64,000 nt of DNA, taken from an uncultured Caulobacteraceae bacterium (GTDB lineage Bacteria > Pseudomonadota > Alphaproteobacteria > Caulobacterales > Caulobacteraceae). Where the stretch lies: positions 310,001 to 374,000 of the forward strand of contig CAKZPF010000006.1 of assembly GCA_937138625.1 (NCBI GenBank). Reading direction: 5' to 3'. The notes below the pieces were generated by a model, which did no database searches, was not told the DNA's origin, and saw only the letters and a program-made list of their open reading frames with translations. Position 1 is the first letter of the stretch. Each line of letters opens with the position of its first letter. Below are positions 2,715-27,859 of this stretch, in pieces. The translations under genes were made by a program, and so were the position numbers.

Positions 2715-3431
2715 ATGACGCACATCGCGCTTGTAGACGATGATGAAAACATTCAGACCTCGGTGGCCATGGCGCTCAAGGCCCAGGGCTATCAGGTCAG
2801 CAGCTATGGGGATGGGATGGCGGCCCTTGAGGGGGTGGCCACACACCCTCCAGACCTAATGGTTTTGGATATCAAAATGCCGCGCTTGGATGGCCTCGAG
2901 ACCCTGAAGCGTCTGCGTCAAAGTACGGACCTGCCGGTGATTATGCTGACCTCGAAAGACGAAGAAATTGATCAGATCCTGGGCTTCAACCTTGGCGCTG
3001 ATGATTATGTCACCAAGCCGTTCTCGCAGCGTCTGCTGATCGAGCGCGTGCGGGCCGTCTTACGGCGTGCCAATCCCGAGACCTCGGGTGCCGATACCAA
3101 AACGCCGGAAAGCACGCTGGTACGGGGGAAATTGCAATTGAACGCGGAACGCCACACTTGCCAATGGGATGGCCAGGAGGTGCGCTTGACCGTGACCGAA
3201 TTTCTGATCCTCGAAGCCTTGGCCAGTCGACCGGGCTACGTCAAAAGTCGTGACCAGCTGATGGATGTGGCCTATTCCGATGGGGTCTATGTCGATGATC
3301 GTACCATCGACAGCCACGTCAAACGGCTACGTAAAAAATTCCGGCAACTCGACAAAAGCTTCAATGCGATCGAGACCCTGTATGGGGTGGGCTATCGGTA
3401 CAAGGCTGATGCAGACGCACCGGTCGGCTGA
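2715..3431 (+). CDS. chvI: OmpR-family response regulator ChvI
   Basis: DNA-binding regulator that, with the sensor ChvG, controls envelope and acid-stress genes in Alphaproteobacteria. The receiver domain spans residues 1-120, with the acidic pocket D8-D9-D10, phospho-acceptor D52 and K in TKPFSQRLL. The LTSKDEEID and [15 protein letters not shown] segments are characteristic of ChvI. A winged-helix domain follows from about residue 135 and ends GVGYRYK. A good ribosome site (AAGGGTGAT) precedes the ATG. Its likely partner chvG is not adjacent but about 23 kb away at 26363-27859 on the other strand, which is unusual because the pair normally sit side by side. Confidence 0.9.
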
Positions 3432-4616
3432 TCAAGCGCTTTGGGCTTGGTTGCCAAAATTTTCGCGATAAACCGGCACCACATCAGGCAGCTTTCGGAT
3501 TTTTTTCAAACTCCACAGCTTGGCCAGTACGGCTTCCGAAAGCTCGAAGCCGGCGCTGAGGATCAAGCGGCCTTGCTCGTCTCGGATTTCTTGGGCTAAA
3601 CGGTCACCTGGGCGCAACCATGACAGGGGTGATGACACCAGACCAATGCGGTCGGCCACATCATCGCCACCCAAAATGGCGGTGCGGGCTTGGACCAAAA
3701 TTGTCGGGTCATACTGCCCGTCTTTAGCCTCCAGACGATCAAAGCGGCTTTCGGTGGGCTCATGGTCTTCGCAGATGTGATCCAGATCAATAATCACCTT
3801 CAAGGCGCGGGCCAGCAGGGGGATGTCCGTGCCGCTGACGGGGGCAGGCGGGAAGCCTGTGCCGTCATAGCCTTTGCGGTGATAGAATACGGCCTCGGCC
3901 ACACCCTTCAGGCGGGGGATGTTGACGATCAGGTTGCGGGCAATCTCTGGGCTTTCCGAGAGAATCTCTTGCTCGTCATCGCTCAGGGTCTTGCCGGCGC
4001 GGGCCTTGGCGCGCACCTCCGGCGGGGCGGTGATGTCGCCCAAGGCGTGCAGCATGATGGCGATATCCAGCTCCCAGGCGTGGGTGATTTTCATCACCTT
4101 GGCCAGACGCCGCCCCCAGTCGCGCATCCGCCGGGTGCGTTTCATGCTGTCGGGATCTACCAGTGACAAGACATCGGTCAACAGCTTCACGCTGCCGGCC
4201 AGGGTGTGCTCCAGCAGTTCCCGTTCGGCCACCTGCAGTTGGTATTGTTTCAGACCGGCCTCGATACCAGACAGCAGCTCTTCCGGCTTGCAGGGCTTGG
4301 AGAAAAAGCGAAAAATCTTGCCTTCGTTGACGGCGCGGGCGGCGGTCGCCTGGTCGGCATTGCCGGTCAGCATCATGCGCACCGTGTCCGGGTGGTGTTT
4401 GGCAGCCGTGGCCAAAAAAGCCGTACCGTCCATTTTGGGCATTTGCTGATCAGAAATGATCAAAGCAAATGGCCCCTGGTCTTGCAGGGTTTTGATAGCC
4501 TCCTCGCCGCCTTCGGCCAAGGTCAGGTCGTATTTGCGCCCCAGAGTGCGGCGGAAGGCCGATAACAGCTTAACGTCATCATCAACGATCAGAATTTTCC
4601 GAGTGGCGACGCTCAT
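3432..4616 (-). CDS. Response regulator with degenerate HD-GYP domain
   Basis: Receiver domain (residues 6-125, phospho-acceptor D56, pocket VDDD) joined to an HD-GYP-related output domain (about 140-300). The GYP element is present as GYDGTGFP at 249-256. The HD metal dyad reads HALGD at 190-194 instead of HDIGK, so the metal-binding Asp is missing, and other ligand positions also look altered. Cyclic-di-GMP hydrolysis is therefore doubtful; a binding or scaffold role is more likely. I chose ATG 4616, which overlaps the stop of the REC-HDOD gene (ATGA) and has an AAGGGAG ribosome site; a longer frame to 4661 would overlap more. It is the last gene of a three-gene signalling operon. Confidence 0.85.
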   Translation of the reverse strand: MSVATRKILIVDDDVKLLSAFRRTLGRKYDLTLAEGGEEAIKTLQDQGPFALIISDQQMPKMDGTAFLATAAKHHPDTVRMMLTGNADQATAARAVNEGKIFRFFSKPCKPEELLSGIEAGLKQYQLQVAERELLEHTLAGSVKLLTDVLSLVDPDSMKRTRRMRDWGRRLAKVMKITHAWELDIAIMLHALGDITAPPEVRAKARAGKTLSDDEQEILSESPEIARNLIVNIPRLKGVAEAVFYHRKGYDGTGFPPAPVSGTDIPLLARALKVIIDLDHICEDHEPTESRFDRLEAKDGQYDPTILVQARTAILGGDDVADRIGLVSSPLSWLRPGDRLAQEIRDEQGRLILSAGFELSEAVLAKLWSLKKIRKLPDVVPVYRENFGNQAQSA

Positions 4617-5830
4617 GCGGCTCCCTTTTCCGGTTGATTGGTTTGGATGGCTTGGCGCCAAGCCTCGAGGTGATCCGCGATGCCCAAGGCCTCGAGGTGC
4701 TCATAGTCTAGTCCCGAGGGTTTTTCATCATCAGCATCCGCCTGGCAGAGGGCTTCGGCGGCGTGAACAATGGTGGTGATATCCAGCGTGTTGTTCTGAT
4801 TCAGCGGCGCAAGTGCGGCAGGCGCGTGGTGCAGGGTGATGGCCTCGGTGATCGGGTCTGGCAGGCCCCATAAGGCCGCCAGATAGCCGCCTATGGCCGC
4901 ATGATCTGCCCCAAAAGCCGTGCTTTCTGCCGCCAGGCGTGCGTCATTTTCGATGGGGTGACTGGCCATCATGCGGTTGGCGGTTTCATACTGGTTCAGG
5001 GCCAGAACCAACCAGCCCATATCCGCCAGTAACCCGGCGGTGAAGGCCTGACCGATGTCATGACTGCTCAGGCGCTCGGCGGTGGCGATGGCTTTGGCCG
5101 CGGCGGCGGTTTTTTGCGCGTGTTCAGATGCCGCCCGCAAAAATGAGGTGGGCATGCCGCCGCGTTCAAAGGTAACCCACATGCCAGACGCCAGAACCAG
5201 TGTCGACAAACGATCTGTGCCCAAAAACCGCACGGCTGATAATGGCGTCGAGACATTCTGGAACGCACCAAAAAAAGGCGAATTGGCCAATTGCAGCACA
5301 CGCGCCGCCAGGCCAACATCTTGCTCGATAATCTCGGCCACGGTGTTGAGGTTGCTGTCGGGGTCACGCAGCACCCGCATCAGCTTGATATAGGCTTCGG
5401 GCGGGCTGGGCACCTTTTTCAAGGCCGCCGCCGTGCGTTGCAGTTTTGAACTTTGGATGCGGTCTCGCAACATCAACGAGCGCTTGACGATGCGCACGAT
5501 GGCCTCTGGGGGGCAGGGCTTAGTGATGTATTGATGGCTGAGGCCGATGATGCGCGGGAAGTCTTCGGGTTGGGTTTGGCCTGACAGCACGATGCGCACC
5601 ACCTCGGGCCATTGGCGCTCCACTTCGGTCAGCAAATCCGCGCCATCCATGCCGGGCATGCGCATGTCGGTGACAATCACGTCATAGCCTTTTTGTCGCA
5701 ACAGCTGCATGGCATGTTCGCCTGAAGGGGCAAAGTCCATCGTCCATTCATGACGCTGCGAGCGCAGGGAGCGGCGCAAGCCCTCCAGTACATTGGGTTG
5801 GTCATCAACGAACAGCACGCGGGTGGTCAT
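4613..5830 (-). CDS. Response regulator with HDOD output domain
   Basis: N-terminal receiver domain (residues 3-120) with pocket D9-D10, phospho-acceptor D55 and TKPCPPEAI. It is followed by an HDOD domain (about 135-340), seen in the LPXX-type segments [19 protein letters not shown] and [19 protein letters not shown] proteins are non-enzymatic relatives of HD hydrolases that usually scaffold signalling complexes. The start overlaps the stop of the upstream histidine kinase by four bases (ATGA), and its own stop overlaps the next gene the same way, so all three are translationally coupled. The kinase upstream is the obvious phosphate donor. Confidence 0.88.
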
Positions 5831-7221
5831 GGGGCAGAACTTTCAGCAGAGGGGGCGTCGCGGCTCTGCAAAGGCAGACGGATAACAAAGCAGGCGCCTT
5901 CTTGGTACAGAGGGTCCAAGTGCAAAGAGCCACCATGTTTTTTCACAATGATAGAATGGCAAATGGCTAGGCCCTGGCCTGTGCCCTTGCCGGGGTCTTT
6001 GGTGGTAAAAAAGGGGTCGAAAATGCGCTCTTGAATATGGGCGGGCACACCCAGGCCGTTGTCCTTGATGCGCACTTCGGCCCAATCGCCATCTTGGCGG
6101 GTTTCGATGGTGATCAGGCCCGGGTTATCCTCGGTCTTGGTTTCGGCCAAGGCGTCGGCGGCGTTGACCAGCAGGTTCAAAATCACCTGATTGATTTCGC
6201 CCGGGTGGCAGGGCACCGGGGGCAAGCTGGGGTCAAAGTCCATCTGCAAATTGGCGATATATTTCCACTGATTGCGGGAGATCACCGACGTGGTCTCGAT
6301 GGCTTGGTTCAGGTTGATTTCTGACTTTTCCTTTTGGCCGGGGTGGGAAAACTCTTTGATGGCCTGCACAATCTCGCTGACCCGGCTGACGCCTTCTTTG
6401 GCTTCGGTGATGGCCTTGGGGATTTCAGCCTCTAAGAAATCAAGATCAATGGCGTTCGCCAATGAGGCCGAGACCTCGACCAATTTTTGCAAGGGGGGCA
6501 CGGTGCGTGCGGCCTCACGAAGCTCGGCATAGCTGTCGAGCAGGCTTTTGAAATCTTCGAAACTGTCGTTCAGAAATTGGATGTTGTCGCCCACATATTG
6601 AATGGGGGTGTTGATTTCATGGGCAATGCCGCCAGCCAAGGTGCCCAAGGACTCGAGGCGCTGGGACTGGGCCAGCTCGCGCTCCAGTTCGGCGCGTTGG
6701 GCTTCGGCCTTTTTGATGGCCCGCAGGTCGCGTAGGACCAGCACCACCGAGTCATGGTGCACGCCTGCCAAAAACTTGGCGGAGATTTCAACAGGAAACG
6801 ACGAGCCGTCGGCCTTGATGGCTTCGCCTTCGCAATGGCTGCGGTTTTGCGCCATGGTGATCACGTCTTGGCCTTCGGGCAATTTGACGTGTTGATGCAC
6901 AGGCCGCCCCAGGCACAGGGTTTCGCGCACATCGATCAGATCTTCGATGATGCGGTTGACGGCCTCGATACGGCCATCTTGTTTCAACACCAACACACCG
7001 ACGGGAATGGTGTTCAAAATGGTGCGTAGCCGGGCAGAATGATCCCATAGGGCGGCGGTGGCTTCCTCCAGCTCCTGGTTGACGGCGTTCAGACGCCGCA
7101 GGTTGTCCTGCAAGTGATCTTCGGCGGCCTGGCGCGCCTCGGCTTCGGTTTGCAGCTGAGCTTTCAGCTGTAGAACCTCGTCAAAGTTTGAATCGGGAGT
7201 GTAAGCTGGGTTGTTTGACAT
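5827..7221 (-). CDS. PAS-domain sensor histidine kinase
   Basis: Soluble hybrid-less histidine kinase of about 464 residues. It starts with a coiled coil (residues 12-60) and a PAS domain (about 65-190, [23 protein letters not shown]). The dimerisation domain carries the phospho-acceptor His in [14 protein letters not shown], and the ATPase domain has an N box ([11 protein letters not shown]), DNGLGVP and the GTGQGLAI lid. There is no transmembrane segment, so it senses a cytoplasmic cue or a partner. ATG 7221 (GGAA upstream) is preferred over TTG 7227. It leads the operon with the REC-HDOD and REC/HD-GYP-like regulators. Confidence 0.9.
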
Positions 7222-7378
7222 CGCCAATTTCCGCTATGGTTGTGCTTAAAAATAGCAGTTTGGCATTAAGTCACTGTAAATCTGTAAGATTAATGCTCGT
7301 TAGCCATACAAGGCCTTGATTTGGGTCTTGATTTCAGGCGAGAGCTTAGACAAGACTCGGTTGCGAAAGGGTCCTGAT

Positions 7379-17139: not shown

Positions 17140-17846
17140 GCCCAGGCGGCCTCGGCGTCGGCGCGCGCGTCCGGGTCGCCCACATGCATCCAGCGGCCCG
17201 GCATGGGCAGACCATAAAGACGGCCCGCACGCTCGGCCCGCTGCCAAAAGGGATGCAGAGATTGGCGACCGGGTGTGGCGTCGGCAAACAGGCGCGGGTG
17301 CAGAATTTGCACGCCACAATAGACATACGGGGCCTCGGGCCGGTCGCCCCGAAACTGCAAACGGCCATCTGGGTCCAGGCTGGCGTCGCCGCGTCCCGCA
17401 TAACCCAAAGCTGTTTTGCGATCCGCAAGCCACAACACCCCGTCCATGCGATCAGTATCAAAGGCAGTGGCCAGGGCCTGCAGACTGGGGGGCTGAGTTT
17501 CACGCCACAGGCTGTCGATATTGGCGCAAAAAAAAGGCTGACCCGCAAAATGTGGCAAGGCCTTCACGATCCCGCCGCCGGTTTCCAGCAACGCATCCCG
17601 TTCATCCGATATGACCACCTCGAGGTCCGAGCGATGACGAAGGTGCGCTTCCAGGCGGTCGGCAAAGGCGTGCACATTCACCACAGCGCGGGTCACGCCA
17701 GCGGCCTGCAGACGATCAAGCATATGATCGATCAGCGCCCGCCCGCCGACCTCGACCAAGGCCTTGGGCCGGTCCAGCGTCAGGGGACGCATGCGGGTGC
17801 CCAGACCTGCCGCCAGCACCATGGCGGTGGTGATGGGCGCGCTCAT
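17136..17846 (-). CDS. murU: MurU-type nucleotidyltransferase (UDP-MurNAc synthesis from MurNAc-1-P)
   Basis: A sugar-nucleotidyltransferase of 236 residues with the N-terminal signature MVLAAGLGTRMRPLTLDRPK and the acceptor loop ETGGGIVKAL. In Pseudomonas and Alphaproteobacteria, MurU turns MurNAc-alpha-1-phosphate into UDP-MurNAc. This bypasses the fosfomycin-sensitive MurA route in peptidoglycan recycling. The specific MurU call rests on its 4-base overlap with the AmgK-type kinase gene, the known partner. Without that context it could be called a mannose-1-phosphate guanylyltransferase-like protein. Confidence 0.85.
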   Translation of the reverse strand: MSAPITTAMVLAAGLGTRMRPLTLDRPKALVEVGGRALIDHMLDRLQAAGVTRAVVNVHAFADRLEAHLRHRSDLEVVISDERDALLETGGGIVKALPHFAGQPFFCANIDSLWRETQPPSLQALATAFDTDRMDGVLWLADRKTALGYAGRGDASLDPDGRLQFRGDRPEAPYVYCGVQILHPRLFADATPGRQSLHPFWQRAERAGRLYGLPMPGRWMHVGDPDARADAEAAWA

Positions 17847-18925
17847 GTCATCACCTCAGGCTGGTGTTGGGCAAGCCATTGCCGCAGGGGTGCCAGTTCC
17901 GGGGTGTGCACATGGCGCTGCAGAATCTGTTTCACACGCGGCATAAAGGCCAAATAGCGGGGCTTATGGTCCCGCATGGCCAGGCGGGCAAACACGCCCC
18001 AAATGCGCACCGCGTTCACCGCCCCAATGGCCGTAATCTCGGCGGCCAGATCGGCGCCATAATGATCGCACCAGCGCGTGATCAGGCGCTGACGCACACT
18101 GTCGGGCACATCGCGGCGGACATCTTCGACCAACATCACCAAGTCCCAGGCCGGGTGCCCCGCAATGGTGTCTTGGAAATCCAACAGGCCCAAATGGCGC
18201 AGGCCTGGCCGATCAGGCAGAACCATCAGGTTTTCGGCGTGATAATCTCGTAACGTCATCACGGGTGTCCGCGCCAAAGCCGGGCCCAACAGCGCCGACC
18301 AGATCCGGTCCCAATCAGCTCGTGCCGCATCGGATACTGGGGGGGCAGCCGAAAGCCGGGGGCCCCAGTCCAACATCAAGTCCGCCCCCGATCGCAGCAC
18401 CATCTCGTCCATGGACAAAATGGGCCAGGGGGCATCGGTGCCGACAGTTTTGGGCACAGGGGCCTGTTGGATCACAAGGGCGATGTCGGCCGCCAGGTCA
18501 TAGAGGGTTTGGGTCTCGGTTTCGTTTGCTGTTTCAAGGGCCTGAGCCAGCAGGGCCTCGCCAAAGTCTTCAACCAAGGCCAAACCCTGGGGGTGATCAA
18601 CGGCCAAGATCTCGGGCGCTGATACCCCCAGATCCCGCAACCATTGGGCCACGCCCACAAAGGCTTCGGTGCGATTGGCCGCCAGACGCATTTGGGCATT
18701 GGGGCCAAGTGCCCGGCGTTCGGCGGCGGTGGCGGTGGGGAGGCAGGGCTGATGCTCGCCCGGGGGCGAGACCATCAACAGGGCGCTGTGGCCGGGCTGT
18801 GTCAGTCGATAATATCGCCGCGAGGAGGCATCGCCGGACAGGGGTTGGATATGGGCACGCGCCCAGCCCGCCGCTTGTAAAAACGCCATCTGGTTGGTGG
18901 TCAGGTCATGTGTGGCGGTGGTCAT
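17843..18925 (-). CDS. amgK: AmgK-type MurNAc/GlcNAc anomeric kinase
   Basis: Aminoglycoside-phosphotransferase-fold kinase of 360 residues. Visible features are the N-lobe LSGDASSRRYYRL, the hinge LVEDFG, the catalytic loop LRDYHAENLM and the metal-binding LLDFQD. AmgK phosphorylates the anomeric carbon of MurNAc, feeding MurU next door. It overlaps both tsaE (upstream) and murU (downstream) by four bases. It is placed between a tRNA-modification gene and DNA-repair genes, an order conserved in many Alphaproteobacteria. Confidence 0.88.
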   Translation of the reverse strand: MTTATHDLTTNQMAFLQAAGWARAHIQPLSGDASSRRYYRLTQPGHSALLMVSPPGEHQPCLPTATAAERRALGPNAQMRLAANRTEAFVGVAQWLRDLGVSAPEILAVDHPQGLALVEDFGEALLAQALETANETETQTLYDLAADIALVIQQAPVPKTVGTDAPWPILSMDEMVLRSGADLMLDWGPRLSAAPPVSDAARADWDRIWSALLGPALARTPVMTLRDYHAENLMVLPDRPGLRHLGLLDFQDTIAGHPAWDLVMLVEDVRRDVPDSVRQRLITRWCDHYGADLAAEITAIGAVNAVRIWGVFARLAMRDHKPRYLAFMPRVKQILQRHVHTPELAPLRQWLAQHQPEVMT

Positions 18926-19401
18926 GCGGGGGCGGTCCAGGTTTTCAGGCTATCGATCCAGTGTGCGGGGGCGTTGATGTGCACGTGGCGCGGGGTATCG
19001 GTGGGGGCACTTAAGGTTATGGCGATGCTGTCTTCGGGGATCAGGTCCCCGGCACGCTCTGGCCATTCAATCAGGACCAGGCCACCATCATCTGTACCTC
19101 CCGAAAGGGCATCTTCAAGACCCGCTTCCAGGGCCTCTTCGGGGTGATTCAGACGATAAAGATCAAAGTGCCAAATGGGGCCATTGGCGTGACCATAACG
19201 ATGCACCAAGGTATAGGTCGGGCTGCTGGCATCGGTTTGCCCCGTGAGGCCTGCGATCAACCCCTGCGCCAGGGTGGTTTTGCCGGCCCCCATAGGCCCC
19301 GATAAGGTCAGCACATCGCCAGCGGTGACCAGGGCGGCCAAATGATGGCCCAGGGCATGGCTGGCGACGGCAGTGGGCAGGGACAAAGTGATCTCTGGCA
19401 T
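18922..19401 (-). CDS. tsaE: tRNA t6A biosynthesis ATPase TsaE
   Basis: P-loop ATPase that supports the TsaBD complex in making threonylcarbamoyl-adenosine at position 37 of ANN-decoding tRNAs. Walker A GPMGAGKTT lies at about residues 35-43, and the family motifs SSPTYTLVHRY and HFDLYRL follow, then EWPERA. ATG 19401 gives about 159 residues, the usual length; a TTG start at 19446 would add 15 residues. It is the first gene of the operon running through amgK, murU, addB and addA. Confidence 0.93.
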   Translation of the reverse strand: MPEITLSLPTAVASHALGHHLAALVTAGDVLTLSGPMGAGKTTLAQGLIAGLTGQTDASSPTYTLVHRYGHANGPIWHFDLYRLNHPEEALEAGLEDALSGGTDDGGLVLIEWPERAGDLIPEDSIAITLSAPTDTPRHVHINAPAHWIDSLKTWTAPA

Positions 19402-19511
19402 GATGGTTTCATTTATGCGGGTTACGCAGACAACGGCAAGGGGCAATCCTTTAGGGGGGCAGGCCCAAGCCCATTCTGGTCTTTTTCTGTGGCGCAGGCT
19501 AAGAGGGGATT

Positions 19512-20744
19512 ATGTCAAAACACACACTTGTTTCCCCTGTGGTCATCATTGGTGCTGGTCATGCCGGTGGGGCCGCCGCCTTTGAGCTGCGCCGTGCAGG
19601 CTTTGCGGGGCCAGTGGTGCTTTTGGGCGCCGAGGCTCATGGCCCCTATCAACGCCCACCTTTGTCCAAAGCCTGGTTAAAGGGCGATGCCAGCCCCGAG
19701 GACATCTGGCTGCGGGATCAGGCTTGGTACGCCGAAGCCGATGTAGAGCTGCGCCTAAAAACGCAGGTGGTGGCCATTGACCGTCAGGAGCAAGTGGTGA
19801 CCCTGGAGGGGGGAGAGGCGTTGCCCTATGGCCAGTTGATTTTGGCCACGGGGGTGCGCTCACGCCCCTTGCCGCTGCCGGGGCACGCGCTTGCGGGAAT
19901 TTACCAATTGCGGGATTTGTCAGATGCCGAGGCCTTGAAGGCGGCGCTGGCCCAGGCCGAAACCGTGACCTTAGTTGGGGGTGGCTATATTGGGCTTGAA
20001 GTGGCGGCGGTGGCGCGGTCCCAAGGCAAGGCGGTGCGTGTGCTTGAGGCCGACAACCGGTTGATGCGTCGGACAGCCAGTGCCGAATTGGCGGCCCATA
20101 TGGCAAGGGTGCATTCCCAACGGGACGTAGATCTGCGGCTGGGGGCTCAGGTGGTCAGCTTTGACGGCACAGATCATGTCGAGGGTGTCACCTTGGCCAA
20201 TGGCGAGACCTTGCCGACGGATCTGGTGATTGTGGCTGTGGGGGCGGTGGCCAATGATGATTTGGCCCGGGACGCGGGGCTGGCCTGTGACCAGGGCGTG
20301 GTGGTGGACGCCCAAGCCCGCACAGAGGATCCGCATATTTTTGCTATCGGAGATGTGGCGGTGCGGCCGTTCGATACCGGGCCTGTGCGCCTTGAGTCCG
20401 TGCACAATGCCCTCGAGCAAGCCAAGCAGGTGGCCGCCCACATCACCGGACGCCCACTTCCCCGCCTGAGTGCGCCGTGGTTTTGGTCGGACCAATATGA
20501 TCAAAAGATCCAGATCGCAGGGCTGATGCGGCCGGGGTTGCGGCCTGTGGTGCGCCAGGATGGCCAGCAGGGGCCGCTATCGGTTTTTCACTTGGCGGGG
20601 CAGCAGCTCGTTTGCGTCGAAGCGGTCAATGCGCCTGCGGACTATATGGCAGGGAAACTGATGCTGGAAAAAGGGGTGCCGGTGCGCGCCGATCAGCTGG
20701 CGGATGTGGGGCAGGATCTTAGGACGCTTTTGCAGCCTGCTTGA
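19512..20744 (+). CDS. FAD/NAD(P)-dependent ferredoxin reductase
   Basis: A 410-residue flavoprotein of the putidaredoxin/rhodocoxin reductase type. The FAD-binding loop VIIGAGHAGG begins at about residue 11, YQRPPLSK is the family signature, and the NAD-binding loop LVGGGYIGLE lies near 155. ATGVRSRPLPLPG and the C-terminal IFAIGDVAVRP are also typical. It probably reduces the [2Fe-2S] ferredoxin encoded at 22120-22434 on the same strand; such pairs serve cytochrome P450s or Fe-S/heme pathways. No P450 gene is in the window. Its 3' end overlaps the convergent gene by 26 bases. Confidence 0.88.
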   Translation: MSKHTLVSPVVIIGAGHAGGAAAFELRRAGFAGPVVLLGAEAHGPYQRPPLSKAWLKGDASPEDIWLRDQAWYAEADVELRLKTQVVAIDRQEQVVTLEGGEALPYGQLILATGVRSRPLPLPGHALAGIYQLRDLSDAEALKAALAQAETVTLVGGGYIGLEVAAVARSQGKAVRVLEADNRLMRRTASAELAAHMARVHSQRDVDLRLGAQVVSFDGTDHVEGVTLANGETLPTDLVIVAVGAVANDDLARDAGLACDQGVVVDAQARTEDPHIFAIGDVAVRPFDTGPVRLESVHNALEQAKQVAAHITGRPLPRLSAPWFWSDQYDQKIQIAGLMRPGLRPVVRQDGQQGPLSVFHLAGQQLVCVEAVNAPADYMAGKLMLEKGVPVRADQLADVGQDLRTLLQPA

Positions 20745-22119: not shown

Positions 22120-22434
22120 ATGACCAAGATCATTTATCATGACCCACAGGGCAAAACCCACGACATCGATGTCAAGCCTGGCCAATCGGTGATGGAGGGG
22201 GCTGTGCGCCATGCCATTCCCGGTATTGATGCCGACTGCGGCGGGGCCTGTGCCTGTGCCACCTGCCACGTTCATATAAAGCCCGATTGGTGGGACAAAG
22301 TCGGAGCCCCCAATCCCATGGAACAATCCATGCTGGATTTTGCCGATAATGTTACCGAGCACTCGCGCCTGAGCTGTCAGATCACGGTTTCAGAGGCCCT
22401 TGAGGGTCTTGAGGTCACCATCCCCGAGGCTTAG
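22120..22434 (+). CDS. [2Fe-2S] ferredoxin, adrenodoxin/putidaredoxin type
   Basis: A 104-residue ferredoxin with ligands C40, C46, C49 and C86 ([11 protein letters not shown], then RLSCQI), the spacing of the vertebrate-adrenodoxin/putidaredoxin class. It carries electrons in the cytoplasm, most likely from the reductase at 19512-20744. The acidic patch after the cluster ([10 protein letters not shown]) is the usual reductase contact. It converges on divL with 26 bases between the stops. The class includes both P450 partners and Fe-S assembly ferredoxins; the absence of isc genes nearby leaves the role open. Confidence 0.93.
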
Positions 22435-22460: not shown

Positions 22461-24758
22461 TTAAATCGCCTCGGCCACAGAGGGGTGATCAGCGGTGTCG
22501 CCTTGGGCGGGGGCCTTGGCCTTGCGCGGCAAATGGCAAGTGACCTTGGTGCCCTTGTGGGGTTCGGATTGCAGCTCCACCCAACCGCCATGCATGTCGA
22601 CAAAACGATGCACCAGCGACAGCCCAAGGCCCGCGCCGCCATGCTCGCCCACTTCAAAGCTTTCAAAAACGCGGGCCTGGTCTTCGGGCTCGATGCCGCT
22701 GCCGGTATCCTCAACCCAAACCAGGGCCTCGTCACCGCGCATATCTGCTCCCACGGTGATTTGCCCCCCGGCGGGGGTATGGCGAATGGCGTTCGAGAGC
22801 AGGTTATAAATCACTTGTTTCAGGCGTTTCTCGTCGGCTTCGATGGGACTGAGCTTGCTGGCGATCTGAGTGTCGATGTGCAGACGTGTGTCTTCGGCCT
22901 TGGTGGCCAACAGGGACATGGCCGAGCCTATGGTATCTTTTAGGTCCACCTGACCCAGGTTCAGCTCCATTTCCCCCGCGTCAATGGTGGCCAGATCCAA
23001 AATGTCTTCGATCAATTTGTTCAATTGATCGGCGGCCTCGCGGATCGAGCCCACTTGGCCCTTTTGCTTGTCGTTCAACACACCACCGATGCCGGCATCC
23101 ATCAATTCGGCATAGCCCATGATGGTGGTCAGCGGATTGCGCAGTTGATACGAGACATGGCCGACAAAATCCGACTTCAGGCGGCTGGCTTCCTCAAGGG
23201 CCTCGGCGCGATCGCGCAAGGCGGCCTCGACGCGGCGGCTGGCGGTGATATCGGCAAAGGCAATTAAGGTGGCGCCATCGGGCAAGGGGCGCGAGCGATA
23301 GGTCACAATATGCCCATCGTTGCGGGTCATCTCGCCGTGAGATTCCACACGGGCTTCGGGCGTGGGGTCGGTGACGCGGGCTTTCAGGGCGGTCCAGACT
23401 TCGCGGTCAGGCAGCAGTGGCAGGCACTTGTCCATGATTTCGTCGAACAAAGGCTCGGTGGCACAATCATCCCGGCCCAACTGCCACATGTCCTCAAAGG
23501 CAGCATTATAGAGCCGTAGACGGCCGTCGGCGGAAAACACCGCTACCCCTTCGTGCAGCTTATCCAGCGTGGCCTTTTGCACCGCAATCAGGGCGTTGTA
23601 CTGGGATTTCAAGGACAACTCGTTGGTCATATCCTCGAACAACAACAACAGGCCGCCCATGGGGTGGGGCTGACGAAAAACCCGCAAGGTGCGACGGTCC
23701 GGCAGGGTCCACAGCTCGTCGGGGGCGTCTTTGAGCTCGGAATAGAAATTCAGCTCACGCTGTTTCCACTCGTTGAAATCCCGTGTTTCCGGCAGACGCC
23801 TGCGCTCACGCAGGCGGTCCAAAATGGCGCTATGACTTGGGCGATCCGCAAGCCAAGCGGGCTCCAGCTCCCACATCTCGGAAAAGGCGCGATTGAAAAA
23901 GATCAAGCGCCGGTCTTTGCCAAAAATCGCCACGCCATCGGCCAGGTGGTCAAGCGTTTGGTCATGGGCATCTTGGTGGCGGGCCAGGGCATCTTCGGCG
24001 GCTTCCATGCGCGTGACATCAAAAGCCATCAAGGCCACCCCGTCCCCACTGGGCTGGGCGTGCACACTGTAAAGCCCGCGTTGGCCATCCACCACGATGT
24101 GGGCGGTGCGCTGTAAGGTGCTGTTTTGGCTGAGAGCCTCTTTGCCCAGGCTGGTGGCTTCACGGGACAATTCGATTGTGTTCGCCAGCACGTCTTCAAG
24201 ACTTTTGGCTTCCACCGCCGAAAGATAGCGACTGTTGGCCCAGCTGATTTCGCCATGGGCGTTCAACCGCCAGGCTGGGAAGGGCGCGCGTTCTAGCATA
24301 TCGGCCAGGCTGTTGATGTCGGACGGTGTTTTGGTCTTGTCCTCGGCCTTAACGGCCCAAATCACAGGGCGGCCGTTGTTCAAGTTGCCCTCAAGGATCA
24401 AGCGCTCACCGGCCGGGGCTCGACAGGTCTGGGAAAAGCTGCGGCCATGTTCCAGCAGGTCCGTGATCACGGTTTCAGCGGGGTGACCGTTGTCGAGCGT
24501 GAGCTTGCAAAAGGCCTGATAGATGGCTTCGGCATCAGCGCGGTCATCCAGGCCCAACAGTTTGCGCACCATATGGGTGCCGGCGTGCGGCACCGTCAGG
24601 GTTTTCTGCCCTGCCCCGTCATCCAAGATCAGGCCAAGACCCGGCAGCGTTACGATCAGGCGCTGGGGCTGGCCCGGGGACTTGCGAAAGGCCAAGGCCG
24701 CGGCAAGGGCCACCCCCCCCACGGCCATCAATCCGGCGGCGAAAACTCCGCTGTCCAT
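22461..24758 (-). CDS. divL: DivL-type PAS pseudo-histidine kinase with Tyr at the phospho-acceptor
   Basis: Membrane-anchored sensor of 765 residues: one N-terminal membrane segment (about 3-25), a PAS array (about 155-500, e.g. ERAPFPAWRLNAHGEISWAN, LADGVAIFGKDRRLIFFN, LHEGVAVFSADGRLRLYN), a DHp domain and an ATPase domain (NLLSNAIRHTP, EDTGSGIEP, GGAGLGLSL). The H-box reads HVSYQLRNPL, so Tyr537 replaces the phospho-acceptor His, the hallmark of Caulobacter DivL (about 769 residues). DivL steers the CckA-CtrA cell-cycle pathway by binding DivK. The tyrosine codon is TAT at 23150-23148. A CtrA-like site lies 80-96 bases upstream. Neighbours ahcY and tsaE are typical for divL. Confidence 0.88.
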   Translation of the reverse strand: MDSGVFAAGLMAVGGVALAAALAFRKSPGQPQRLIVTLPGLGLILDDGAGQKTLTVPHAGTHMVRKLLGLDDRADAEAIYQAFCKLTLDNGHPAETVITDLLEHGRSFSQTCRAPAGERLILEGNLNNGRPVIWAVKAEDKTKTPSDINSLADMLERAPFPAWRLNAHGEISWANSRYLSAVEAKSLEDVLANTIELSREATSLGKEALSQNSTLQRTAHIVVDGQRGLYSVHAQPSGDGVALMAFDVTRMEAAEDALARHQDAHDQTLDHLADGVAIFGKDRRLIFFNRAFSEMWELEPAWLADRPSHSAILDRLRERRRLPETRDFNEWKQRELNFYSELKDAPDELWTLPDRRTLRVFRQPHPMGGLLLLFEDMTNELSLKSQYNALIAVQKATLDKLHEGVAVFSADGRLRLYNAAFEDMWQLGRDDCATEPLFDEIMDKCLPLLPDREVWTALKARVTDPTPEARVESHGEMTRNDGHIVTYRSRPLPDGATLIAFADITASRRVEAALRDRAEALEEASRLKSDFVGHVSYQLRNPLTTIMGYAELMDAGIGGVLNDKQKGQVGSIREAADQLNKLIEDILDLATIDAGEMELNLGQVDLKDTIGSAMSLLATKAEDTRLHIDTQIASKLSPIEADEKRLKQVIYNLLSNAIRHTPAGGQITVGADMRGDEALVWVEDTGSGIEPEDQARVFESFEVGEHGGAGLGLSLVHRFVDMHGGWVELQSEPHKGTKVTCHLPRKAKAPAQGDTADHPSVAEAI

Positions 24759-24914: not shown

Positions 24915-26321
24915 TTAGTAACGGTAATGATCCGGCTTGAACGGTCCCTCGGCGGGGATGCCGATATAGCTGGCTTGCTCGTCTGACAGTTTGGTCAACT
25001 GCACACCCAGTTTTTCTAGGTGCAACATAGCGACCTTTTCATCCAAGGTTTTGGGCAGGGTATAGACTTTGTTCTCGTACTGGCTACGGTTCACGAAAAG
25101 CTCGATCTGGGCCAGGGTTTGGTTGGTGAAGGAGGCACTCATCACAAAGCTGGGGTGACCGGTGGCGTTGCCCAAATTCACCAAACGTCCTTCCGACAAC
25201 ACAATGATGGCGCTGTCATCGGGGAATTTCACTTCATGGACCTGGGGTTTGATCTCGGTCCATTGGAAGTTTTTCAGGGCCCCGATTTGGATTTCGCTGT
25301 CAAAGTGGCCGATGTTGCAAACAATGGCGTTGTGCTTCATGGCCCGCATGTGATCGACGGTGATGACGTCTTTGTTGCCGGTGGCGGTAACAAAGATATC
25401 GGCGTTGCTGACCACGTCATCCAAGGTGCGCACTTCATAGCCTTCCATAGCCGCTTGCAATGCGCAAATGGGGTCAATTTCGGTGACGATCACCCGGGCG
25501 CCACCGGCGCGCAGGCTTTCGGCCGAGCCTTTGCCCACATCACCATAGCCACAAACGACGGCGACTTTGCCGGCCAGCATCACATCGGTGGCGCGGCGGA
25601 TGGCATCGACCAGGCTTTCACGGCAGCCATAAAGATTGTCGAATTTTGACTTGGTGACGCTGTCATTGACGTTGATGGCAGGGAAGGGCAGGCGGCCTTG
25701 CTTTTCCAGCTGATATAGACGGTGGACACCGGTTGTGGTTTCCTCGGACACGCCTTGGATGGCGCTGCGCAGCGTTTTGAACCAGCCTTTGGGCTTGCTG
25801 TTCAAATACGCCTTGAGGGTTGCGAAAAAGGCGACCTCTTCTTCGTTTTGCGGATTGTCCAAAACGCTGGGGTTGTCTTCGGCCTCGGCACCCAGGATGA
25901 CAAACATGGTGGCGTCCCCGCCGTCATCCAGAATGATGTTGGGGGTGGTTTCGCCCCACTCGAAGATTTTGCCCACATAAGCCCAGTATTCTTCCAGTGT
26001 TTCGCCTTTTTTGGCGAACACGGGCGTGCCGGTGGCGGCGATGGCGGCGGCGGCGTGGTCTTGGGTCGAGAAAATGTTGCAGCTGGCCCAACGCACCTCG
26101 GCGCCCAAGGCTTGCAGGGTCTCGATCAGCACCGCGGTCTGCACGGTCATGTGCAGGCAGCCGGCGATGCGCGCGCCTTTCAAGGGCTGGCTCGCGCCAA
26201 ACTCGGTGCGGGTTTGCATCAGGCCGGGCATTTCATGCTCGGCGAGATCGATTTCTTTGCGGCCAAAGGGGGCGAGGTCCATATTGGCGATGGCAAAATC
26301 ATGGGTCATTGCTGTGTCCAT
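24915..26321 (-). CDS. ahcY: Adenosylhomocysteinase
   Basis: NAD-dependent hydrolase that splits S-adenosylhomocysteine into adenosine and homocysteine, completing the methyl cycle. At 468 residues it has the bacterial length with the 40-residue insert. Family motifs include [15 protein letters not shown], the catalytic [15 protein letters not shown] and [13 protein letters not shown], the NAD loop [13 protein letters not shown], and the C-terminal KPDHYRY. ATG 26321 has GGAG eight bases upstream. It follows chvG by 41 bases on the same strand, so no long leader or SAH riboswitch fits. The PTS genes that often lie between chvG and ahcY are absent. Confidence 0.97.
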
Positions 26322-26362: not shown

Positions 26363-27859
26363 TTAGGCCTTTTGTTGGGGAAAGGCCACCACAAATCGAG
26401 CCCCTTGGATCTGGCCGTGCTCATCCGTTCGATTTTCCGCACGGATCTGACCGCCGCAGATCTCGATGATCTGTTGGGCGATGGCCAAGCCCAAGCCGGA
26501 GTGCTGACCGGGACCTTTGCTGGTGTTAGGGCGGTGCGTGTAAAAGCGCTTAAAGATATGCGGCAGGCTTTCGGGCGCAATGCCAGGACCATCATCGTCA
26601 ACATGGATCTCAACCTGGCCATCTGTCGCCTGCACCCCCACCCGCACGCAACCGCCAGCGGGACTAAAGGTCAGGGCGTTGTCAATCAGATTGCGCACCA
26701 CGCGGCCCAAAGGATCCTCGAGGCCTCGAACCCACAGCGGGCCATCGCTTTCGGATGTTAGCTGCACGCTGACGTTCCGATCATGTTCGAGATGACCATA
26801 AGCCCTAACGATATCCCCCACCAATGCGCTCAGGTCCAGAACGCCCATGGGTGCGGTGGCGGCTTCGGCCTCCAGGCGGCTCGCGGCCAAAATTTCACTG
26901 ACCAAGCGGTCGATGCGCGCCACATCATGGGCGATGATTTTGCGCAATTGGTCTTTGTCGGCTTCGGTCTCCACCACTTCCAAGGTTTCAATGGCCGAGC
27001 GAATGGAGGCCAGCGGATTTTTCAACTCGTGCGCCACATCGCCCGCAAATTGTGCGCTCAGTTCGGCGCGTTCCGTCAGGCGTGTGGTCATGGCCTCGAG
27101 GGCGCGGGCTAGGTGGCCAATCTCGTCTTTGCGGGCCATCATTTTGGGCACTTGCAAGCGACGGCGTGTGCCCAGGCGCACCTGGTCAGCGGCACGCGCC
27201 AGGCGGATCATGGGCCGCACCACCGCACCCGCCAGCCAGGCGTTGGAGATGATCAATACCATCAAGGCGGCGATCACAAAGGGCAACAACGCGCGCCGTT
27301 CAGCGGCAATCACACTGTCGATATCAGTGCCATCCAGCACCAAAACCCCCAAGACCGCTTGCACCCGCTGAATGGGTACGGCCACGCGGGCCACATGTAG
27401 GCCATGGGGGGTGTGGCGCTCGCCGGTGACCACCTCGCCGCGCAGCACCTGGGCCATTTCGTCTTGGCTGAGGGGGCTGCTGAGTGGCAAACGGACCATG
27501 GGTTTGGCGCCTCGCCGTTCAGGCAGGGCCCGTTGCTGAATGTCATGGGAGACCGCGGCATGGGAAGCGATCAGCCGCCCTTCGCGATCATACAGCCGCA
27601 AATCTGTGGTGGCCGAAAGGGGGATGCGCTCCAGCACCAACATCGCACGATCAGCTTCCAGCATCGGCTCGGGGTCGCCGACAGTGGCCACATCCGCCAA
27701 AATGCCCGACACCAACCCCGCCTGAGACAACAGCCCGTCAATGCGGGCCTCTACCAGGCCCTTGCGCATTTGGTTCAGCCATAGGCTGCCCATCACCAAA
27801 ACCAACAGGGCCAAACCATTGAGCAACACGGCCCGCCGCGCCAAGGGAGAGCGCATCAT
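26363..27859 (-). CDS. chvG: Sensor histidine kinase ChvG
   Basis: Inner-membrane kinase of 498 residues: membrane segment at about 10-29, a periplasmic region of about 160 residues, a second segment at about 192-214, HAMP, then a kinase core with phospho-acceptor H277 (GDVAHELKNPLASIRSAIETLE). The ATPase domain shows NLIDNALTFSP, DDDGPGI and GLGLAIA. The H-box and following SAIETL segment match ChvG, which with ChvI governs envelope and acid responses. Its place directly upstream of ahcY supports this. The cognate chvI is about 23 kb away (2715-3431). Start MM at 27859 has only a weak ribosome site. Confidence 0.85.
   Translation of the reverse strand: MMRSPLARRAVLLNGLALLVLVMGSLWLNQMRKGLVEARIDGLLSQAGLVSGILADVATVGDPEPMLEADRAMLVLERIPLSATTDLRLYDREGRLIASHAAVSHDIQQRALPERRGAKPMVRLPLSSPLSQDEMAQVLRGEVVTGERHTPHGLHVARVAVPIQRVQAVLGVLVLDGTDIDSVIAAERRALLPFVIAALMVLIISNAWLAGAVVRPMIRLARAADQVRLGTRRRLQVPKMMARKDEIGHLARALEAMTTRLTERAELSAQFAGDVAHELKNPLASIRSAIETLEVVETEADKDQLRKIIAHDVARIDRLVSEILAASRLEAEAATAPMGVLDLSALVGDIVRAYGHLEHDRNVSVQLTSESDGPLWVRGLEDPLGRVVRNLIDNALTFSPAGGCVRVGVQATDGQVEIHVDDDGPGIAPESLPHIFKRFYTHRPNTSKGPGQHSGLGLAIAQQIIEICGGQIRAENRTDEHGQIQGARFVVAFPQQKA

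Follow-up and report, generated by a model that had tools for sequence, protein, structure and literature searches.

The window, by which we mean the whole 64,000-nucleotide stretch analyzed here, carries divL on its minus strand (22461..24758), a gene with an ATG start codon that encodes a PAS-rich histidine-kinase-like protein of 765 aa and was recognized through the ORF itself, Pfam, a PDB match, and a tree. The kinase-like module of the product comprises a DHp domain (HisKA, residues 528-595; 22974..23177, minus strand; Pfam, 4.1e-18) and a CA domain (HATPase_c, residues 642-746; 22521..22835, minus strand; Pfam, 1.4e-28), the latter retaining in the alignment the N, G1, F, and G2 box residues, as in Caulobacter DivL. 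The PAS region produced Pfam matches with PAS_7, PAS_4, and PAS_8. A PAS_7 domain (residues 269-380; 23619..23954, minus strand) and a PAS_4 domain (residues 398-509; 23232..23567, minus strand) are also seen as PAS-like folds in the predicted structure, which exhibits further such folds at residues about 147-247 and possibly 41-137, making three to four overall; this model has a pTM of 0.36 and is therefore read at the level of domain folds only. The N-terminus bears a hydrophobic anchor (residues 5-23; 24690..24746, minus strand), the only such stretch according to the hydrophobicity of the sequence.

Upstream of divL lies ahcY, encoding S-adenosylhomocysteine hydrolase (24915..26321, minus strand), and downstream tsaE (18922..19446, minus strand), both supported by Pfam and conserved in related loci. 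Between divL and tsaE, on the opposite strand, we observed a 2Fe-2S ferredoxin-like gene (22120..22434, plus strand) and a FAD-dependent ferredoxin reductase-like gene (19512..20744, plus strand), and beyond tsaE an AmgK-like phosphotransferase gene (17843..18925, minus strand); these three were named from the sequence of their ORFs and are likewise conserved neighbors. This order, from ahcY through divL, the ferredoxin/oxidoreductase pair, and tsaE to the AmgK-like kinase, was found whole or in part in many related loci. The ahcY/tsaE neighborhood is not universal, being absent near several Caulobacteraceae divL genes, and was taken as supporting the DivL identity and not as defining it. A ChvG-like kinase gene (Sensor_TM1, HAMP, HisKA; 26363-27859) adjoins ahcY, and such a kinase beside ahcY is also present at other divL loci. 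One ChvG match located about 0.6 kb from the divL center in the neighbor survey proved to be DivL itself and was left out of the neighbors. Elsewhere in the window (2715-7227), a PAS kinase clusters with three regulators, one of the OmpR type and two whose output domains are HD or HDOD-like.

The phospho-acceptor position and the placement of the kinase

The most pronounced feature of the DHp domain is the residue at the phospho-acceptor position, where a TAT codon (23148..23150, minus strand) specifies Tyr537, the counterpart of Caulobacter Tyr550. The earlier note had read the motif HVSYQLRNPL with this codon in place of a His codon, which the minus-strand sequence bears out (...gtc ggc cat gtc tcg TAT caa ctg cgc aat ccg ctg...). 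In the PDB sequence search the motif was aligned to NVSYELRTPL of Caulobacter DivL with Tyr537 on Tyr550, and the column was invariant in two alignments of 17 and 25 sequences, which makes chance or sequencing error a very improbable cause. His534 (codon 23157..23159, minus strand), which had been raised as an alternative acceptor, was rejected because it lies opposite Asn in Caulobacter DivL (GNVSYELR) and its column varies among N, S, T, E, and H in relatives; neither the PDB alignment nor the alignment with relatives placed any other His at the acceptor. The H-box of an active HisKA histidine kinase has an acceptor His, and the window protein has Tyr537 there. Among the 16 HisKA matches in the genome, window DivL included, the acceptor His was found in all 15 other kinases, 14 of which were scored by the motif SH/AH plus D/E (the ChvG of the window among them) and the 15th (L044, AHDLRN) by eye.

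Several lines of evidence place this protein with DivL. The best PDB sequence match was Caulobacter DivL (4q20, 1e-55; next match 1e-30), which was also among the top fold matches and had the highest identity listed there, 42-43% over DHp-CA. A maximum likelihood tree of the DHp-CA region (52 rows) recovered the window protein together with 4q20 in a 17-row Caulobacterales clade with support of 96/97, whose members include Caulobacter, Brevundimonas, Maricaulis, and Hirschia; by whole-protein match, the nearest named relatives were from Maricaulis, Hyphomonadaceae, Hirschia, and Henriciella, which makes it very likely that the organism belongs to the Caulobacterales. Independent loss of the acceptor by an unrelated PAS histidine kinase would be conceivable in view of the DHp-CA domains being common to many kinases and of the 15 other HisKA proteins in the genome, yet the placement inside DivL, a match extending over the PAS array beyond the kinase module, and the conserved gene order speak against it, leaving this reading a negligible probability. 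The 15 other kinases all fell outside the DivL group, and the HisKA search of the genome together with the tree revealed no candidate fitting DivL better. None of the 25 best NCBIfam matches named DivL, all of them being other kinases far under their cut-offs, and a scan of viral contigs found no relatives.

Taken together, sequence, tree, PAS array, single N-terminal anchor, and gene neighborhood support the window gene as a divL ortholog. The earlier note had argued for this orthology from the PAS array, the anchor, and the ahcY/tsaE neighbors, all three of which were recovered, and both the alignment and the DHp tree that it proposed as checks agree with it. This is an ordinary ortholog, well known and expected in the group on which most DivL work has been done.

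Variation of the acceptor residue among DivL proteins

The same note held that the Tyr substitution defines DivL, which is too strong. We examined the best DivL-like match in each of 98 alphaproteobacterial genomes (among them that of the window), drawn from strongest, middle, and weaker matches of a protein search unselective for Tyr; the named loci were left out of this estimate because they had been found partly through a pattern holding SY. The acceptor was Tyr in 79 genomes, His in 5, and another residue in 14 (Thr 3, Gln 3, Phe 2, Gly 2, and Val, Arg, Lys, and Glu 1 each). The Tyr is thus typical of DivL, being usual and not universal. It does not define the protein, since in other genomes the DivL encoded between ahcY and tsaE has His (three forms) or Phe (one form) at the acceptor.

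The His forms at this locus (SHELRTP or THDLRSP) were observed at L183 (G041), L217 and L227 (G265), and L165 (G203), and the Phe form at L167 (G189). In G093 and G240 the best DivL-like match also has His, and the ahcY-tsaE context is absent in the stretch read. A second DivL was ruled out as the explanation of the His forms because the runner-up kinase in these genomes scores far lower (e.g., 404 vs 141 bits in G041). On a quick FastTree tree with the acceptor column removed, His at the acceptor needed four changes, at least three of them forced by the starred branches, the exact number being unsure given the long branches and the method. Other acceptors were seen in the DivL-like proteins L202 (G043; Val), L212 (G146; Phe), and L166 (G267; Arg). 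The DivL-like proteins of small-genome alphaproteobacteria (L145-L154) are full-length and divergent; their acceptor is Thr, Lys, Gln, Gly, or Glu, and in some the H-box motif is broken. The weakest matches (the Thr, Gln, Lys, Glu, Gly, and Arg forms) are divergent, and ahcY stood beside none of them in the stretches read. Tyr550 has been described as conserved in homologs with Ala in Magnetospirillum as the sole exception (PMC4211667); the position is more variable than stated there, His included, and the His-bearing forms make possible kinase activity of some DivL proteins testable.

This variation also bears on whether the window protein might be a catalytically active kinase, with Tyr537 or a different residue as its autophosphorylation site, in line with the former designation "tyrosine kinase DivL". 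The CA-domain box residues are intact and the PDB title retains "tyrosine kinase", but Caulobacter DivL with the same boxes has no autokinase activity, and Val, Phe, Gly, Lys, or Arg at the acceptor in relatives argues against a required phospho-Tyr; we regard an active kinase as very improbable. Since the box residues are kept, the CA domain may bind ATP; Caulobacter DivL with these residues intact binds it weakly (PMC4211667).

Predicted DivK docking, the cell-cycle circuit, and known DivL systems

In Caulobacter, where the binding-switch mechanism was tested, DivL has neither kinase nor phosphatase activity; it binds DivK~P via a docking surface, with its PAS domains giving selectivity, and stimulates CckA (PMC4211667). 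The docking roles were assigned there to R553, T557, Y562, H579, and A601 (PMC4211667), and four of these five positions are identical in the window protein (R540, T544, Y549, and A590 for R553, T557, Y562, and A601). The fifth, H579, which Caulobacter DivL needs for DivK~P binding (PMC4211667), corresponds to Gln568; among relatives (n=110) this position holds Tyr in 88, His in 17, and Gln in 2.

The genome (2,023,278 bases, completeness 98.8%) encodes the partners. DivK matches Caulobacter DivK (1m5t) at 3e-60, its gene standing directly before that of PleD (NCBIfam), and CckA matches the structure 5idj at 2e-91; its NCBIfam score of 710 lies under the equivalog cut-off of 1000 despite the strong match to CckA structures. 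CtrA and CpdR are both above their NCBIfam cut-offs, ChpT and GcrA were recovered by genome family search, and DivK, CckA, ChpT, and CtrA thus all share the genome with window DivL. SciP, PopZ, PleC (named from sequence only), and a DivJ-like kinase are also encoded, and the one N6/N4 methylase is a CcrM-type candidate. The CckA-CtrA circuit that the earlier note had taken to be implied in this organism was in this way found gene by gene. Full-length DivL is known to co-occur with DivK in Alphaproteobacteria (PMC2877005, PMC9430884). A complete Caulobacter-type CtrA control circuit, pseudokinase included, hence persists in a Caulobacterales genome of about 2.0 Mb, which is expected in itself.

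Very probably, then, the window protein is a DivL ortholog that acts, most likely, as a DivK~P-sensing pseudokinase controlling CckA. Because Tyr537 replaces the acceptor, its DHp-CA module would stand outside His phosphotransfer and would serve as a docking platform sensing DivK~P; its preference for phosphorylated DivK would be set by the PAS array. Free DivL would stimulate the kinase activity of CckA and thereby CckA-ChpT-CtrA phosphorylation, and binding of DivK~P would switch CckA to the phosphatase state. By analogy with Caulobacter and Hyphomonas, the protein presumably binds DivK~P, controls CckA, lacks kinase activity, and localizes to the pole.

In a variant compatible with this pseudokinase reading, DivL would signal to CckA largely without DivK, following a proposal made for Hyphomonas neptunium. 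DivL and the rest of the downstream part of the circuit are essential to Hyphomonas, a relative from the same taxonomic order, which can dispense with DivK (PMC7200025), and the Gln at the H579 position points the same way; against this, DivK is encoded beside pleD, four of five docking residues are retained, and a two-hybrid test showed H. neptunium DivL to retain DivK binding (PMC7200025), so that we consider such independence unlikely. It is decidedly unlikely that changes in this lineage (H579 to Gln568, D595 to Glu584) have rewired part of the DivK input, with DivL answering mainly another input via the PAS array, as suggested for Hyphomonas.

Compared with known systems, the DivK~P-sensing pseudokinase proposed here shares with Caulobacter crescentus DivL (PDB 4q20; PMC4211667) the acceptor Tyr, the PAS array, one N-terminal anchor, the DHp-CA fold, the docking Arg, Thr, Tyr, and Ala, and the full partner set. 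At the identity given above for DHp-CA the two are diverged orthologs, differing in Gln568 for H579, Glu584 for D595, and Asn652 where Caulobacter has His. Hyphomonas neptunium DivL comes from the same taxonomic order and belongs to the same circuit, and DivK is dispensable in that organism (PMC7200025). The short or degenerate DivL proteins of Rhodobacterales and Anaplasmataceae are homologous to the window protein in the PAS part; they mostly lack the kinase-like module and occur where DivK is absent (PMC9430884, PMC4426382), whereas the window's genome has both the module and DivK.
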